Source: Austwickia chelonae NBRC 105200
Lineage (GTDB): Bacteria; Actinomycetota; Actinomycetes; Actinomycetales; Dermatophilaceae
Direction of reading: 5' to 3'
DNA length: 64,000 nt
Assembly (NCBI RefSeq): GCF_000298175.1
Contig: NZ_BAGZ01000017.1
Span: 124,001 to 188,000, forward strand
Shown: positions 1,443 through 15,460 of the stretch, piece by piece
Position numbering within the stretch: the stretch's first letter is position 1
How the letters are laid out: the number at the start of each line of letters is the position of its first letter
Position numbers and translations under genes: made by a program
The notes under the pieces: model-generated
Told to the model about the DNA's origin: nothing
The model's database searches: none
Seen by the model: only the letters and a program-made list of their open reading frames with translations

Positions 1443-2320
1443 CGGCGCGGCTCCAAGGGTCGGGTGTCGGCGAAGTGCGAGATCTTCGCCCCGCCGCCGA
1501 CAGAGGTCTTCACGGTGGTGTATCGCGCCCAGGACGGTGGTGCGCTCTGCTGTTCGTGCACTGCGACGAGGGAGGCCAATCCCAACGGGACCGGGTTCAG
1601 GGCCCAGGTCAGGCCTGGTCCGCGGCGCCCGTCTCGGTCGATGCCGAGCTGCCCGGCCAGGAAGGTGGTCACCCCGAGGTAGGCCAGGAGTTCCACTGTC
1701 GGGACGGTGATCACATCCTCGGTGCCGTACCGCAGCCGTGGTGTCGTCTCGGCGGTGGTGAACCGCAACGCGATGCCGCTCTTGCGTGGCCTCGGGTAGC
1801 CCCCGGTGAGCAGGACTTCCAGGTCGCGGGCGAGGTCCTCGGTCTGGTCGAGGCGGATCTGTTCGATCGTGTCGGCTTTGCGCCCGGTGGGGGTGGGCCA
1901 CAGGTCGGCCAGCGATTTCCGGGCGTAGCTGCGGCCAGTGACCAGTACCGTCGACGCGGGGGAGACCTGCGGGTCTTCGCTGACCTTGCCGTTGATCCGC
2001 CCGTAGTCGAAGACCCGCAATGCCGCATCGAGTTCCGGGTCTTCCCAGGAGCGGTCCGCCAGTTCGCGGACCACCGACCAGGCCGGGACCGTGGTCTGGA
2101 CGTGTGCCGGGATCGGGAATCCCTCCGGTTTCGTCGCTTCGGCGGTGGACTTCGCCACCACCACCGCCAAGTCCGCGGGAGCGTCTTCGCAGTGCAGCAC
2201 CGGCGTGGTGTCGGTGAAGGAGAGCTCCGCCGGGCCGGGCGCGACCCGCAGTAGACCCACCGCGGCCAGGTAGTGCGCCGGGTTCGAGGCGTCCAATGCC
2301 GCCAACTGGTAGGCGCTCAC
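1439..2320 (-). CDS. Csb3-like CRISPR-associated protein
   Basis: 293 residues. The start is GTG within GTGA, overlapping the cas3 stop by four bases. The N-terminus (ALDASNPAHYLAAVGLLRVA) resembles the opening of Csb3 proteins of type I-U/I-G, which have an xDxxNPxxFxAxxGLLxLA pattern. Later motifs include DYGRINGKVSEDPQVSPAS and GLTWALNPVPLGLASLVAVHEQQ. It is far shorter than Cas8-type or Csx17 large subunits. Given its place in the operon it could serve as a reduced large or accessory subunit of the effector. The family call rests on N-terminal similarity and context; the function is not established from the sequence. Confidence 0.55.
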   Translation of the reverse strand: MSAYQLAALDASNPAHYLAAVGLLRVAPGPAELSFTDTTPVLHCEDAPADLAVVVAKSTAEATKPEGFPIPAHVQTTVPAWSVVRELADRSWEDPELDAALRVFDYGRINGKVSEDPQVSPASTVLVTGRSYARKSLADLWPTPTGRKADTIEQIRLDQTEDLARDLEVLLTGGYPRPRKSGIALRFTTAETTPRLRYGTEDVITVPTVELLAYLGVTTFLAGQLGIDRDGRRGPGLTWALNPVPLGLASLVAVHEQQSAPPSWARYTTVKTSVGGGAKISHFADTRPLEPRR

Positions 2321-5170
2321 CGGGACACCTCCATCACATGCGCCGATGCCGGTCCGGCTGGGTCGTCCGGGACGGGCTTGGGGAGGGCCTCATCGCGGGA
2401 GACCTGCCAGTCCGCCAGCCGTACGATCGTCTCGGCCAGGGCGAGCGTGTATGGCCCGTATCGCTGGTTCAACTCGGCGAACTCCTCTGTCCGGGTCTGC
2501 CACTGCGCACAGTTCGGGTCCTGATATCTCGGGATGGGCACTTCGGCGTGTTCGATCACCGGACCCGGCCCCCGGAAGAACCCGTGATGGGTCAGTACCA
2601 GGTGCCGCACCAGCGCCGGGTCGTGAACGGCGACCTCGCCGGCGCTCACTGCGGCATCGAACAGATCCGCGGAGGCTGCTTCGTGGCGGTACTGCGCCGG
2701 GATCCCGATCATCGCCCGCACCCGAGGCCACCAACGCCGCGGCAGCCGAGATTTCGCCAACACCGAGGGGCGCGACGGGTCCGTCATCGACTTCGCCGAT
2801 CCGTCGAGGTTCGGGTCCGCCACCGACTTCAGCATCCCCGTGTCATCGATGAAGGTCCGCAGTTCGGCTTGGACGATGCCCTCGGCCTTTCCGTCGTCGT
2901 GATGTCTGCCCGCGGCCGCGATGTCCTCGATCACACGCGGGGCCAACCCGATGGCTTGCGCCCAGGCGCGGGCCTGCTCACCGACCGCCTGCTGATGCTC
3001 TGTGAGGAACACCGACCGGTCGGGGACTGTTTCGACTTGGGCGCGGACCCGGCGCAGCTGCACCCACCCGACTCCCATCCCGTCCGCATCCACGAGCTCT
3101 TCGGCGGTGAACGTCGGCGCCAGCTCCTCCGGTGCGCCGCCTCCGGTGATATATCCCGCCGCCGCGTCGACATCGCCGCTGCGGGCCAGCCCCTTCAACG
3201 TGCTCAGGTCGGCGGGGGAGAGGCCACTTTCCGGCAGGGCCTGGCCGTCCTCGAGGAAGGCCGTCTCGTGGCCGGGACGGGGCGTCAATCCGAACGGTCG
3301 CGTCGTCGCTGGTCGGATGGAGATCAGGTCGGCGCCGGCTTCGGTCAGCCCGAACGCGTTCTCGATGGGGGCGCTGACCAGCAGCCAGCCTGGGCGCAGA
3401 TCCTCTCGGGTCGGGGCCAGATTGACCGGTTCGATCCCGGCCGGGTCGAGCAGCACCATTCGCCGTTTCGCCTTACTCGCCTTCACCAGTAGGTCGGCTG
3501 CCGCGGGGAGGGGAACGGTCCAGATCTCCCCTGGAAGCGGGGGGCACGACGCAAGGTGCTTCGCGACCGCGGTGTCGTCGACCAGGTCGATCAAGGCGTC
3601 CCGGAATGCGACCTGGACTTCGGCGGCCTGCTCCTGCGGGGCCCGCAGCCAGCGGCCTACTGCCACTTCGTGGGGGGATCCGGCTGTCGCGACATACGAC
3701 TCGAAGTCGTGCCGGGTCAACACTGCGACCTCGGGGACCGGCGGGTCCCACCCGGCTTCGCCTTCCCCGGCCGGGGGTGAGATGAGCAGGTCGCTCAATT
3801 CACCCATCGTGCTTGGAGCGTGCTCGACCAGCGCGGCCGCCAAGGCAGCCCCCGCGGAGCCGTACACCGGCTCCGGGCCGTTCGCGCCGACGACCAGCGT
3901 GACCGTGCAGTCCTTCCGGTCCCCGACTCGATTCCCTCGCCCCAACCGTTGGATCAATGCTTCCCGACTGCACACCGCACTGACGACGTCATCGGCGTCG
4001 AGGTCGGCGCCGACCTCGAGTGCTTGGTTCGTCACCAACACCACTGCGGGGGCGCTTGCCCGGTCCGGGTGGCCTGTGCGGTAGCGGGCCAACGCGCCCA
4101 GCCAGTCCGCCCGGGCGTATTCCGGCATCCCGCCGATCACTGCGATGACTTGCGCGCCGGCCTGCTTCACTGCTGTGGACCGGCCCAGTGCGGTCGCGAG
4201 GCTCTTCACCGTGGCCGCGGTGTTGGCGTACACCAACGTCAACCGGCCTGCCCGGACGGGCACCGATCCCGCGTATTTCGCCAGCGCCGCGTCCGAGGTC
4301 TTGCCTTCCCCGCAGACCACCTGCACAGTCGTTGCGCGGCGCTGCTCCTGTTTGTCTCGCAGCTCGGGCCGTGCCGCGAACTCGGCGTCGAAGTCGAATG
4401 GTGCACTGCCGCCGCGCGGGGTCGCGGTCATTTCCACTACCTGCCGTGGCGGGACCGTGCCGGCGAACCACGTCTCCTCGAGCGCCTGCCGGTCCAGAAC
4501 TCGCAATGTCGTCAAGGCCTGCGCCGCGATGTGTGCCTCATCCAGGATGAAGAGGCAGTCTGTGCCGACCAGGGCCGCTTCGATCGCGCGCCGGTTTGGT
4601 GCCACCCCGTACCCGCGCCACAACAACCGCGACATCACCAGGTCGATCGTGCCGAGAATGATCGCCGGGCCAGCAGGGACCCGAATGTTCTCCGGCCGCT
4701 CGGGCATCCCGCCCCGCAACTGCCGGACCTCGACGGCCGACCCGCTCCCCGACAGGCCTGCCAGGACGTCGCTCACGGCCGCGATCGCCTCCGAGCCTGG
4801 CCCGGACGGCACCGATCCCTCTGCCGTGGTCGCTTCGAGGGTGTCCTTGATCCGCTGCGCCGTCGTGTACGTGTGGTCGACCACGGCTCGCCGGTCGACC
4901 ACCACCACGTACCGCATCGGCACCTTCCGGACTGTGCCCGGCTCCCGCGTCACCCGTTCGAGATCTACCGCCAATGCCCACAGCCACGCCACCATCAGCG
5001 ACGTCTTGCCGTACCCGGTGGGCACCACCACCTGCTCTAACGGCTCCCCAGCTACCAACTCGGCAGCCGCAGCCTCCTGCCACACATAGGGAACGTGCCC
5101 TGTCACCGCCTTGAAGAACACTGCGAACGAGGGCAAACCGCCAGGCACATCATCCGACCTTGTTGTCACG
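2317..5170 (-). CDS. cas3: Type I-G (I-U) Cas3 helicase with C-terminal HD nuclease domain
   Basis: Helicase-nuclease that degrades target DNA after recruitment by the effector complex. Starting from the GTG at 5170 it has 950 residues. Helicase motifs in order are VVPTGYGKTSL (Walker A, near residue 50), FILDEAHIA (DEAH box), EMTATPR (motif III), ALEVGADLDADDVVS and QRLGRGNRVGD (motif VI). The HD domain is C-terminal: GRHHDDGKAEG near residue 750, then RHEAASA, LTHHG and LADW. This domain order is the type I-G arrangement; I-E Cas3 has HD first. A TTG at 5220 would add 17 residues; the GTG was chosen because TTRSDDVPGGLPSFAVFF looks like the true N-terminus and GGTCGGGG precedes it. First gene of the cas operon. 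Confidence 0.85.
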
Positions 5171-5283
5171 ACCCCGACCGTAATCGCGCCCACCGACAAC
5201 ACAATGCGCGCCCGAGACAACGCCCCCTGGTAAGCTCATGCTGAAACACTTCACCGTCGCTGTATCACTGCAGGTCGGGAAGA
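5171..5283 (+). promoter_or_regulatory. CRISPR leader and divergent cas3/array intergenic region
   Basis: This 113-base stretch separates the cas3 start from the first repeat. It should carry the array promoter on the plus strand and the cas operon promoter on the minus strand. The degenerate repeat lies at the far end of the array, which places the leader here. It is less GC-rich than its surroundings. I see no clear -35/-10 pair. Confidence 0.5.
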
Positions 5284-6290
5284 GTCCTCCCCGCATACGC
5301 GGGGGTCGAGGATCGGGCCCCGGTGGAGTCCGACCGTGGCTCGAGTCCTCCCCGCATACGCGGGGGTCGAGGTCCAGGGCAGCAGTCGCGGCGGCCGCGT
5401 CATCGGTCCTCCCCGCATACGCGGGGGTCGAGGCCCTGGTACGCCCTGCTCATCCCGAATCCCCGAGTCCTCCCCGCATACGCGGGGGTCGAGGGTCTTC
5501 GGCGACGACTTCAGGCGGTACGGCGCCGTCCTCCCCGCATACGCGGGGGTCGAGGGGGCGACCCGGGCAGCGGCGGCGGCGGGTCTACGTCCTCCCCGCA
5601 TACGCGGGGGTCGAGGCCTGAAGCGCGCCTCCTGGATTGAGTGGTCGGCGTCCTCCCCGCATACGCGGGGGTCGAGGTTGGCCCCGTCATCCAAAGCGAT
5701 GCTCGACCTGGTCCTCCCCGCATACGCGGGGGTCGAGGCCCGACGACGCTCCCTAACGGCGGTCACGGGTTGTCCTCCCCGCATACGCGGGGGTCGAGGA
5801 GATCAAGATAATTCGCGCTCGCTTCGCTTGTCGTCCTCCCCGCATACGCGGGGGTCGAGGCCCCCAAGCCGGTGCCGGTCACCTGACCGCGAGGTCCTCC
5901 CCGCATACGCGGGGGTCGAGGACCGAGATCGACGCGGTCCTCGAGGCGCAGGCGTCCTCCCCGCATACGCGGGGGTCGAGGTGCCATCGCGACGATGGCA
6001 CTGACCACGGCCACGTCCTCCCCGCATACGCGGGGGTCGAGGGGTCATCCCGATCGATAAAATCGCCTAGGAGCCGTCCTCCCCGCATACGCGGGGGTCG
6101 AGGCCTCTGCTTACAACGACCCGAACGACCTTCGGGGTCCTCCCCGCATACGCGGGGGTCGAGGGAACGCCAACTCAGGGTGGGCGCAGGATCCGGTGTC
6201 CTCCCCGCATACGCGGGGGTCGAGGGTCGAATCCGAGTTCGCAGCTCGGACCCAGGTCGTCCTCCCCGCATACGACGCGGGGGTTGCTGG
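5284..6290 (+). CRISPR. CRISPR array, 17 repeats of 28 bp, 16 spacers
   Basis: Repeat starts are 5284, 5345, 5406, 5467, 5528, 5589, 5650, 5711, 5772, 5833, 5894, 5954, 6015, 6076, 6137, 6198 and 6259. The repeat begins GTCCTCCCCGCATACG and ends CGGGGGTCGAGG; the core CCCCGC/GCGGGG forms the hairpin typical of type I-E repeats. The period is 61 bases (33-nt spacers) except for one 60-base step at 5894-5954 (32 nt). The first 16 repeats look identical. The last (6259-6290) has an AC insertion after CATACG and a diverged 3' end (GGGGGTTGCTGG), marking the leader-distal end. All spacers differ from one another as far as I can see. Transcription is inferred as left to right. Confidence 0.97.
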
Positions 6291-12630: not shown

Positions 12631-12777
12631 GTGGGCAAGGGCTCCGAGGAGCTGGCGACGGTGATCACCGGCCTGCTCGCCCCCATCGGGACCGGTGTCG
12701 GAACCGCCGTCTCGGACGAGTCCACCGAGCTCGCCAAGACACTAATCGAGGGGCTCGGCAGCGCCCCGCCGTTCTAG
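12631..12777 (+). CDS. Small hypothetical protein (48 aa)
   Basis: GTG start preceded by AGGGAGG with eight bases spacing, a good ribosome binding site. The product MGKGSEELATVITGLLAPIG... contains a central Gly/Thr/Val-rich segment and ends LGSAPPF. It stops three bases before the end of the IS3 relic on the other strand. It could be a genuine short gene or a leftover from an element. I recognise no family. Confidence 0.4.
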   Translation: MGKGSEELATVITGLLAPIGTGVGTAVSDESTELAKTLIEGLGSAPPF

Positions 12778-13120
12778 GCGAATCGGTACCAGGTTATGCC
12801 GCACGGGCTGTGGAGCTCCGCCTGCGCGAAATACGCACTCGCCTGACGAAGAATCGTACTGGTGCGACGCAATTCGCGATTCTCTTTCTCCAACTCCGCG
12901 ATGCGTGCAGCCTCGCTGTTGGCGGTCCCGGGCAGCTCGCTCTCATCGATGTGTTCACGCTTAACCCAGTTCCGCAGCGTGTCGCCGTTGATACCCAACT
13001 GCTCACCAGTCAGCCGACAGGCCCGCGACACTGCCAGGCCGGGCTCAGCAGCGACCCGGTCACGAACTAACCGGACCACGCGCTCACGTAGCTCATCGGG
13101 ATACTCTTCGGTGCAGGCAT
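12774..13120 (-). pseudogene. IS3-family transposase OrfA relic (frameshifted, OrfB absent)
   Basis: The minus-strand frame reads YPDELRERVVRLVRDRVAAEPGLAVSRACRLTGEQLGINGDTLRNWVKREHIDESELPGTANSEAARIAELEKENRELRRTSTILRQASAYFAQAEL, the HTH plus leucine zipper of IS3 OrfA. The expected N-terminus MPAPK is encoded at 13120 but is one base out of frame with YPDEL, a single-base deletion. After AQAEL the sequence diverges (HSPCGITWYRFA), and no OrfB with a DDE domain follows. This is a dead insertion-sequence fragment. Confidence 0.8.
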
Positions 13121-13247: not shown

Positions 13248-14147
13248 TCACGTTCTAGTACCTCGATCGACCGGGATCTGCGGGTCGCCCAGTCCCTTCC
13301 AGAAGGATGAGTCGCGGTTATGCTGTTTGACCAGCACCGACAGGACTGGATCTGTAGTTTTACTGCGCACAAGAATGTCATCGAGAGATGCGATGACATC
13401 GAGGATGGACCTGGGGCCGAACTGGCCGGCCACTTTCTTCGCCTTTACCCGGACGTTGTTCGGCGTGGGACCGGCGTCGATGACCGAGTGGTGCCAGAGC
13501 CGACTGTGGTGAGCACATCGGTTGCGGAGATAGACCAGCGCCCGTACCCGGTACGGGAAGCCTCCCTTGGCCACACCGATGCTGTTGGCGACCGCGTCTG
13601 CCAGCTCACCCTGTGCGCCACGTTCGATGCACTTCGACAGGGTGCCGAACGACCAGGCCTCGACAGCCGACCAGATCGGCAGCTGTGCGAAGCATGGGGA
13701 GCTGATGCCGTCGGCTCGATAGCGAAGGATGTGGCGCTCCTTGCTCCGTTTCAGGTCGCGGAAGCATGCCTTGACCGTCGGCTCGGCGTCGCCGACATCG
13801 GTGTAGAAGTCGTCCTCGAGGTATCGACCGCAGGGTCCGTAGGTCCGGCCGATGACGTAGGCCGTATGCGTCCGCAGCAGCAATTCCGCGCACGTCAGAG
13901 GCCTGGCAAGCATGGCCCGCAGAGCCTGGTCGGCCTCGTAGATCTCTCTGATCTCGTCGAAGGTGGTGCCGGGCCGGAAGGTGTCATCTCCGCGGTGCGG
14001 GGCGACCTGGAAGTACCGGGCGTAGCCGGAGAAGCGGTAGTAGTTGTTTGCGGCGAGGAAGTCGGTGCAGGCGTCCTTGTCGGACACGCTGAGTCCACGA
14101 TCGAGCAGCAGGGTGACCTGCTGCTCCCAGGACAGGCTCGGCTTCAT
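13248..14147 (-). CDS. Abi_2-family (AbiD/AbiF) abortive infection protein, HEPN RNase
   Basis: 299-residue phage-defence protein. The start reads MKPSLSWEQQVTLLLDRGLSVSDKDACTDFLAANNYYRFSGYARYF, the canonical Abi_2 N-terminus (Q...L..RG..I.d...a...L...nYYrlsgY). Near residue 215 is VYLRNRCAHHSRLWHHSV, containing the RNxxAHH motif of HEPN ribonucleases (R-x4-H). Members are predicted to cleave RNA and halt growth on infection. GGGG lies ten bases before the ATG. The gene is directly preceded by a strong hairpin with a T-run (see separate entry), which may be the regulatory RNA reported for AbiF-type systems. It sits among transposon relics, suggesting horizontal acquisition. Confidence 0.9.
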   Translation of the reverse strand: MKPSLSWEQQVTLLLDRGLSVSDKDACTDFLAANNYYRFSGYARYFQVAPHRGDDTFRPGTTFDEIREIYEADQALRAMLARPLTCAELLLRTHTAYVIGRTYGPCGRYLEDDFYTDVGDAEPTVKACFRDLKRSKERHILRYRADGISSPCFAQLPIWSAVEAWSFGTLSKCIERGAQGELADAVANSIGVAKGGFPYRVRALVYLRNRCAHHSRLWHHSVIDAGPTPNNVRVKAKKVAGQFGPRSILDVIASLDDILVRSKTTDPVLSVLVKQHNRDSSFWKGLGDPQIPVDRGTRT

Positions 14148-14159
14148 GAACTACCCCAG

Positions 14160-14225
14160 AACGAAAAGGCCCCTCCCATTTGAGCATCGCTGAGAGGCTT
14201 GGGAGGGGGTCGATTGGTTCCAATG
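14160..14225 (-). ncRNA. Structured leader/terminator hairpin upstream of abi, candidate RNA antitoxin
   Basis: On the minus strand CCCCTCCCA (14208-14200) pairs perfectly with TGGGAGGGG (14178-14170) around a 21-base loop, followed by CCTTTTCGTT, the form of an intrinsic terminator. It lies 22 bases upstream of the abi ATG. Just upstream is ATTGGTTCCAAT (14213-14224), a small palindrome, and TTGACG on the minus strand at about 14244. A short RNA ending here would be a natural partner of the HEPN protein; an attenuator of the abi mRNA is the alternative. RNA-regulated AbiF systems are known; the assignment here is inference. Confidence 0.4.
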
Positions 14226-14343
14226 TAGCCCATAAGGCGACGTCAAGCACATCGTTCTCCTGACCGATCTACAGGGGCCGACACCATCACGCCCGCGATC
14301 CTTCACCGGCTGGTCGCAGGTCGCCTCGCGACCGCAGCGCGAC

Positions 14344-15001: not shown

Positions 15002-15460
15002 TCAGACGGTGGCGTTCCAGCTGGGCGTCGCTCGGCCGATCGACGCCAATGCGGGAGCGATCAGCCCGCGATCGACCAACACCTTGCAGCCGTCGCTGAG
15101 GACGCGCGCTGTGCCTTCATCGAGGGGCAGGGAGGCCCACGTGGACGCGGTGATCCCGAACTCGACGTAGAGCCCGCTGGGCAGCCGGACCCGGCGTTCG
15201 TTCATGGGTACCCACTGCTCGCTGCGAACGAGGCGCCCGTCGGGGCAGGCCGCGGCGATGAAGTCGAGCGATCGCAGGTGCGCTTGGGTCTCGTCGGTGA
15301 GAACAACGAGGTCGACGTCGCTGCCCATCCGCGGCCGTCCGTAGGCGTAGGAGCCGACCACGATGGCGGCCTGAACGTCGGGCTGTTGCTCAGCCCATGC
15401 GGCGAATTTCGCCACGATTCGGTTGACGAGCTGGCGTCGCGCCCTGAAGCGTGCAGACAT
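15002..15460 (-). CDS. Nucleotidyltransferase domain protein
   Basis: 152 residues. The DNA polymerase beta-like motif VVGSYAYGRPRMGSDVDLVVLTD (residues about 35-57) provides the GS and DxD metal-binding signature of minimal nucleotidyltransferases. The rest (RSLDFIAAACPDGRLVRSEQWVPMNERRVRLPSGLYVEFGI) gives a third acidic residue in VEFG. No HEPN partner gene (MNT/HEPN pair) is adjacent, so it looks stand-alone. The substrate is unknown. GGGGG precedes the ATG. Confidence 0.85.
   Translation of the reverse strand: MSARFRARRQLVNRIVAKFAAWAEQQPDVQAAIVVGSYAYGRPRMGSDVDLVVLTDETQAHLRSLDFIAAACPDGRLVRSEQWVPMNERRVRLPSGLYVEFGITASTWASLPLDEGTARVLSDGCKVLVDRGLIAPALASIGRATPSWNATV

Follow-up and report, generated by a model that had tools for sequence, protein, structure and literature searches.

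A 64,000-nucleotide stretch of the Austwickia chelonae NBRC 105200 genome (contig NZ_BAGZ01000017.1, positions 124,001 to 188,000; hereafter the window, whose own coordinates are used throughout) carries a locus in which a small structured RNA precedes an abortive-infection gene, and which we regard with high confidence as a compact AbiF toxin-antitoxin module, a member of a known system. The assignment is built on the identity of protein and RNA, on their gene order, and on conservation and covariation. Hairpins of the same RNA family were also observed in phages in which no toxin was detected, and we lean towards reading these as decoy antitoxins that would silence host AbiF during infection, by analogy with the pseudo-ToxI RNA of phage PhiTE.

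The AbiF locus of the window

RF03085, the abiF RNA, was the sole Rfam family matched at gathering level within the window (positions 14206-14171 of the reverse strand; 45.6 bits, gathering score 37, E = 3.5e-5), and at E ≤ 0.001 the genome yielded no other abiF RNA match. In the minimum-energy fold of the hairpin (14170-14208, reverse strand) nine outer pairs, CCCCUCCCA/UGGGAGGGG (14208-14200 with 14178-14170), enclose 21 nt, and the loop agrees with the Rfam consensus in the covariance-model alignment. The T-run CCTTTTCGTT follows 3' of the stem; as TTTTCGTT (14160-14167, reverse strand) it resembles, together with the hairpin, an intrinsic terminator ahead of the toxin gene, the ATG of which, at 14147, is 22 nt from the end of the stem. 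A simple terminator scan, which admits loops of 3-8 nt only, called no terminator at the hairpin. On the other side, the -10-like hexamer TACATT (14222-14227, reverse strand) is the predicted promoter of the short RNA; a good -35 element was not seen, and no consensus site passed a sigma-70-type promoter scan upstream of the hairpin. We infer that the RNA starts close to the hairpin and is very short, and that the hairpin doubles as its terminator.

The adjacent gene, abiF (13248-14147, reverse strand), encodes a 299-aa protein of the Abi_2/AbiD-F type. Residues 30-219 match Pfam PF07751 (Abi_2) with 118.2 bits against a cut-off of 25.6, the PADLOC AbiD model scores 147.6 bits, and a sequence match over residues 2-222 (E = 7.5e-17) indicates homology to the solved AbiF toxin PDB 8vz6. 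The HEPN RNase motif RNxxxH is present as RNRCAHH. An earlier note, made from the sequence alone, had described a 9-bp stem, a 21-base loop and a T-run 22 bases before the ATG, and an Abi_2 protein with the motif RNxCAHH; this geometry is exact, the motif was read in the 299-aa frame, and the proposed coupling of an AbiF-like HEPN toxin to an upstream structured RNA agrees with the Rfam, Pfam and PDB-sequence matches alike. Its term "candidate" RNA-antitoxin defence system holds for the identity of the locus and not for its novelty, as the RNA family is curated and neutralization of an AbiF has been published. The independent short RNA with its own terminator that it postulated accords with the hairpin, the T-run and the -10-like box, while the transcript itself is a prediction to which the sigma-70 scan lends no site.

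With regard to transcription, termination, binding, toxicity and trigger, we propose that a promoter just upstream would yield an RNA of about 50 nt, essentially a single abiF hairpin, and that hairpin and T-run would halt most transcripts, leaving the toxin gene to be read by occasional readthrough only. Released hairpins would bind to dimeric AbiF and occlude its HEPN RNase site. Shut-off of host transcription, a general trigger of such systems, would upon phage infection deplete the short RNA faster than the toxin, and the freed AbiF would then cut RNA and stop cell growth.

Conservation of the RNA-toxin pair in bacteria

The RNA gene, directly 5' of the toxin gene on the same strand and 22 nt away, keeps this order in ten loci, the window and nine others, each with a -10-like box, hairpin, T-run and AbiF gene. 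The nine are found in a genome of the window's class (L003), Frigoribacterium (L040), Gordonia (L060, L109), Curtobacterium (L065), an Actinomycetota metagenome-assembled genome (L084), Mycobacterium sp. 1245111.1 (L091), Mycolicibacterium komossense (L144) and a contig of IMG/VR (L167), so that AbiF with its RNA occurs in Mycobacteriaceae (L091, L144). Their AbiF proteins are 64-73% identical to that of the window. Common to all ten loci are a TA...T hexamer at the -10-like position (10/10), the motif CAATCGA (CAATCGC in L084), the stem CCCCCTCCC/GGGAGGGG, the loop and the T-run; the hairpin block including its loop is nearly invariant, and the stem shows no variation within this close set. 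The conserved order in other actinobacteria bears out the idea of a high-GC, actinobacterial version of the system.

For a wider view, bacterial genomes were searched by loop sequence alone, and AbiF was then sought with a hidden Markov model (HMM) built from 49 proteins. AbiF lay just downstream of 78 of the 123 RNA copies listed (79 under an earlier counting rule), of 65 of the 101 listed copies that leave room for 700 nt or more, and of all nine listed copies in loci with a GC content of at least 0.58. Scored by one loose pattern in all groups, a T-run directly after the antitoxin stem was present in 24 of the 26 distinct toxin-linked RNAs that the loop search retrieved; the actinobacterial arm CCTCCC occurs in only four of the 26. 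In the window and in most toxin-linked RNAs a single element seems to act as both antitoxin and terminator, and toxin expression would consequently be coupled to the RNA.

Several observations weigh against the assignment of the window locus to an RNA-regulated AbiF module. The RNAfold energy of the hairpin is only mildly unusual (z = -1.71), with 11 of 200 shuffles folding equally well, and folding energy is therefore weak evidence by itself. No AbiF was found downstream of 45 of the 123 listed bacterial copies, 36 of them with 700 nt or more to spare and just nine with less, and the T-run is likewise kept by 24 of 27 distinct toxin-less bacterial copies. Three bacterial copies precede RhuM genes and one a Bro-N gene. 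A phylum sample of 396 genomes contained 31 with Abi_2 and five with the RNA at E ≤ 0.001 (two of the five over the cut-off; scored with stricter filters), so that many actinobacterial Abi_2 genes have no RF03085-like RNA visible to these scans; no Abi_2 gene was seen in one of the five RNA loci, L005, and another, L004, is situated at a contig end. Five further, weak abiF matches upstream of Abi_2 genes (L007, L008, L010, L012, L019), seen on scanning of the Abi_2 loci, reached 23.8-29.3 bits with E values of 0.36-8.4. Finally, the RNA of the Clostridioides difficile system AbiF/RCd22 is described as having two motifs and a separate terminator and lies in a prophage, whereas the window has one motif with the T-run on its own stem (PMC12373285).

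The RhuM loci (L106:6548-7393 in an uncultured Bacteroides, L125:4219-5064 and L153:1697-2542) are near-identical and carry a full abiF hairpin with T-run 26 nt before the RhuM-family gene; in L146 (1726-2613) hairpin and T-run lie 25 nt before the Bro-N gene. The presence of these genes in AbiF's usual place suggests either a swapped toxin or a reused RNA. Small antitoxin arrays were seen in L119 (uncultured Ignavibacteriales), where three tandem abiF hairpins, 135 nt apart, precede one AbiF gene, and in L117 with two hairpins in tandem.

Toxin-free abiF RNAs in phages

The window RNA matched 74 phage records (RefSeq/GenBank twins included), 67 of which are Mycobacterium phages; seven of these 67 records were read. 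The RNA of Mycobacterium phage LittleE matches that of the window at 35 of 36 bases. A consensus query added Acinetobacter phage Acj61, Salicola phage CGphi29, Aeromonas phages (which we take to be T7-like), Roseobacter phage CRP-143, Rhizobium phages and more cyanophages, and the copies are spread over several unrelated phage families. RF03085 scored over the cut-off in 14 of the 15 phage loci read (38.4 to 58.0 bits), Arthrobacter phage Mimi falling below it, and S-CREM1 is the only one of the 15 in which the abiF RNA is annotated. Abi_2 (PF07751) was detected in none of the 15 phage genomes at E ≤ 1. A tblastn search of phages with the window protein matched 62 records, with no Mycobacterium phage among them.

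Four exact loop patterns, P1 to P4, were used to search IMG/VR contigs; since they fix most of the loop, they say little on loop variation. P1 retrieved 32 contigs, two of them toxin-linked. The 49-protein HMM, on which toxin absence in these stretches rests, detected a toxin for 2 of 32 P1 copies, 0 of 120 P2 copies listed (from a set of at least 120), 0 of 101 P3 copies and 0 of the 101 usable copies from the 103 loci of P4; the Pfam model covered 50 viral records, all from the 220 stretches of P2 and P3, and found PF07751 in 0 of 50 at E ≤ 0.1. The resulting 352 toxin-free contig copies are those listed, and contigs from related phages do not count as independent cases; four P1 contigs (L178, L181, L182, L184) resemble LittleE, Lolly9, MrMagoo and Aziz, so that the P1 and named-phage sets overlap. 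A T-run follows the stem in 11 of 36 distinct viral RNAs, 32 of the 120 listed P2 copies and 29 of 101 P3 copies. The phage copies are found in isolates as they are, and nearly always one per stretch.

Many of these RNAs lie among transfer RNA genes. In Bromden the 37-nt RNA occupies a 48-nt gap between tRNA-Gly and tRNA-Lys; in MrMagoo and Aziz it sits between tRNA-Gly and tRNA-Val, and in S-SZBM1, S-CREM1, Lolly9 and Mimi the distance to a tRNA is 3-6 nt. Altogether 7 of 15 phage loci have the RNA within 50 nt of a tRNA, against 2.3 expected when the RNA is placed at random in the fetched stretch, the control used throughout. Distances are larger in LittleE, Baka and Thibault of the genus Omegavirus (269-1100 nt) and in Acj61 (1889 nt), and the stretches of CGphi29, PZL-Ah8, T7-Ah and CRP-143 contain no tRNA. 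In both Aeromonas phages the RNA is found between the connector and scaffold genes, in CRP-143 between the scaffold and capsid genes. Among the 352 listed toxin-free IMG/VR copies, 137 lie no more than 50 nt from a tRNA and share its strand in every case, with about 28 expected: 14 of 30 for P1 (3.9 expected), 75 of 120 listed for P2 (16.4), 19 of 101 for P3 (4.2) and 29 of 101 for P4 (3.5), P2 to P4 having been gathered after the pattern was noticed in P1. Most are within 12 nt (P1, 13; P2, 75 of the 120 listed, at distances of 3-9; P3, 16; P4, 27). None of the 123 listed bacterial copies is near a tRNA, a contrast that says little because just 0.14 were expected. The tRNA region of Mycobacterium phage MrMagoo that holds its abiF RNA also contains a GOLLD giant RNA (L190:728-1145).

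Selection on the RNA structure

The earlier note had named covariation among homologues as a check, and pairing exceeds the shuffled maximum in toxin-linked and toxin-free viral RNAs alike. Of the 6 outer positions, 5.34 are paired on average in the toxin-free viral set (180 distinct RNAs), compared with 4.25 after shuffling of the 3' sides (maximum 4.46 in 300 shuffles); for the 26 distinct toxin-linked RNAs the value is 5.42, against 4.93 (maximum 5.19). Five or six outer positions pair in 158 of the 180 viral RNAs, and all four Watson-Crick types are seen at outer pairs 2 to 6. The stems are maintained by compensatory changes, as is evident in close relatives: over 338 aligned columns MrMagoo and Aziz differ by two substitutions, a 2-nt indel and end gaps, and both substitutions fall in one stem pair (C-G versus U-A), and PZL-Ah8 and T7-Ah show a compensatory pair besides further differences within the RNA and its surroundings. 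RNA identity was above that of both flanks in 103 of the 105 pairs formed by the 15 phages (means 0.75 versus 0.33 and 0.34). Two loop bases co-switch in the viral contig stretches (C..G at least 120, U..A 100, C..A 1, U..G 0), which suggests an extra loop pair outside the Rfam structure.

Correspondence between phage copies and host loci

In actinobacterial AbiF RNAs the stem begins directly after AAAT (3-nt spacing), and among the listed bacterial copies with at least five unbroken pairs only nine actinobacterial ones, the window included, have such an AAAT-adjacent stem. The same spacing was observed in seven of eight actinophage copies read and in none of seven other phages; Mimi shares it only via a weak 4-pair stem, and Thibault differs by one. 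Similarly, the P2 type of RNA seen in Aeromonas phages is found on a gammaproteobacterial plasmid, where it precedes an Abi family gene by 22 nt within a restriction operon. These matches in spacing and type fit either decoys tuned to host toxins or capture of the RNA from hosts. Toxin-free copies on plasmids were considered and rejected: the window RNA weakly matched four plasmid records, none with at least 80% query coverage, and a variant query matched three, the single good match being toxin-linked.

Interpretation of the phage copies

The phage abiF copies constitute a defence RNA carried in phages without the effector protein, as a decoy would be. Their carriers comprise Mycobacterium phages of three groups, Mimi, Acj61, Aeromonas phages, a Roseobacter podovirus, cyanophages and hundreds of IMG/VR contigs, and on balance we consider toxin-free abiF RNAs to be a widespread counter-defence across many phage kinds, the window-type bacterial locus probably being the kind of target that the actinophage copies imitate. 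Where the hairpin serves as a spacer between tRNA genes, as it often does, one transcript would give both replacement tRNAs and an AbiF inhibitor; phage tRNAs have been proposed to resist host tRNA-cutting enzymes (PMC10264068). The literature searched yielded no earlier description of phage abiF hairpins as toxin-free decoys, and an earlier notice is possible.

Some findings count against a decoy function. Although mycobacteriophages often carry the RNA, RF03085 was found in a single genome out of 198 from the genus regarded as Mycobacterium, so identified because the sole match (L204) shares the stretch around the RNA with L091, Mycobacterium sp. 1245111.1; as one genome per species was searched, accessory copies may escape this count. 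Outer pair 1 forms in only 131 of the 180 toxin-free viral RNAs, 22 of the 180 pair at fewer than five of six positions, and Baka shows a C.A mismatch together with an altered loop base. Lactococcal phage sk1 reportedly has a region protecting against AbiF (Rince, 2000), and its genome has no RF03085 match at E ≤ 10, on which ground sk1 was rejected as an earlier-known decoy carrier.

A possible, though in our view doubtful, alternative is that the phage copies perform a task unrelated to AbiF, for example in the processing of tRNA transcripts or as a regulatory RNA, as might be expected from the same-strand proximity to tRNAs (137 of the 352 listed copies against about 28) and from the rarity of the AbiF RNA in the Mycobacterium genomes searched (1/198); this would not account for the copies in late structural operons without nearby tRNAs (Aeromonas phages, CRP-143), for a loop kept as in toxin-linked RNAs, or for the actinobacterial 3-nt spacing in seven of eight actinophages (Mimi on its weak stem) and none of seven others. 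It is unlikely that the copies are functionless leftovers of AbiF modules that lost their toxin: imperfect copies do exist (Baka, and the 22 of 180), but sequence identity is higher in the RNA than in either flank for 103 of 105 phage pairs, close relatives show compensatory changes (MrMagoo/Aziz, PZL-Ah8/T7-Ah), and several unrelated phage families carry it. Very improbable, on the bacterial side, is a hairpin that is a mere leader attenuator of the abi mRNA without action on the protein, since for all its terminator-like form (22 nt before the ATG, with a T-run that recurs in 24 of 26 distinct toxin-linked RNAs) it keeps a loop that a terminator does not need, of Rfam consensus type and nearly invariant in ten loci, toxin-free copies are common in viruses, and RNA-protein neutralization is published for C. 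difficile (PMC12373285).

Under the AbiF module assignment, the window locus represents a clean, minimal actinobacterial module, which lends itself to biochemistry because a single short hairpin makes up its antitoxin. Should the phage copies prove to be decoys, they would form a natural set of AbiF inhibitors, RNA mimicry of antitoxins would be common rather than an accident of escape, and the old question of phage tRNA arrays would be linked to RNA-cutting defence enzymes. With an RNA of less than 40 nt and many phages that grow on M. smegmatis mc2 155, the decoy function is simple to test.

Genomic surroundings of the module

A short transposase frame (12774-13079, reverse strand; HTH_Tnp_1) directly downstream of abiF hints at mobility. 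A small frame at 15002-15460 (reverse strand) has a nucleotidyltransferase domain (Polbeta/NTP_transf_2), and proteins of this kind frequently partner HEPN proteins. A CRISPR array with a 61-nt period and the repeat GTCCTCCCCGCATACGCGGGGGTCGAGG is located at 5284-6286, about 7 kb from abiF; one 121-nt interval suggests a diverged repeat, and the frame beside the array (2317-5220) encodes a Cas3-type helicase C-terminus. The CRISPR locus that the earlier note placed in the same region is thus present, while its relation to abiF is one of neighbourhood only; ABC transporter and LysR genes lie between the two, and no sign of a coupling was seen.

Comparison with known systems

The relation of AbiF to Cas13 is in print (PMC12165695, PMC12737573, PMC12948488). 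Membership of the window protein in Cas13 or type VI systems was rejected, since its 299 aa contain one RNxxxH motif rather than two HEPN domains. Its homolog PbAbiF from a Prevotellaceae bacterium was solved with its non-coding RNA (PDB 8vz6) by Zilberzwige-Tal and colleagues (PMC12737573, PMC12373285). The window locus resembles C. difficile AbiF/RCd22 in that an Abi_2 HEPN protein is encoded behind an RNA with the RF03085 motif; in the C. difficile system the RNA binds AbiF directly and neutralizes it in cis and in trans, the toxin is expressed by readthrough, and no cleavage occurs between the RNA motifs (PMC12373285). Tandem RNA repeats of the ToxIN type, as described in the same source, were not found, a single motif being present in the window and its genome, which points to a type III-like mode of working and not to a ToxIN-type member.

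For the phage copies, the closest precedent by RNA family is the abiF small RNA of cyanophage S-CREM1, which lies in a tRNA-rich region of a genome in which our own search found no Abi_2; it was reported as a single annotation without a mechanism, and Rfam is said in the same paper to hold three bacteriophage sequences (PMC9964418). Two other RNAs offer precedents by function. The RNA anti-CRISPRs (Racr) likewise occur in phages as single copies of a defence RNA of the host, differing in that they mimic CRISPR repeats and have a demonstrated function (PMC10651486). Pseudo-ToxI of phage PhiTE differs in being related to ToxI and not to the abiF RNA, in the expansion of its repeats in escape mutants and in its demonstrated function; like the toxin-free abiF hairpins, it is a phage copy of a type III antitoxin RNA, and it blocks an abortive-infection toxin (PMC3475682).
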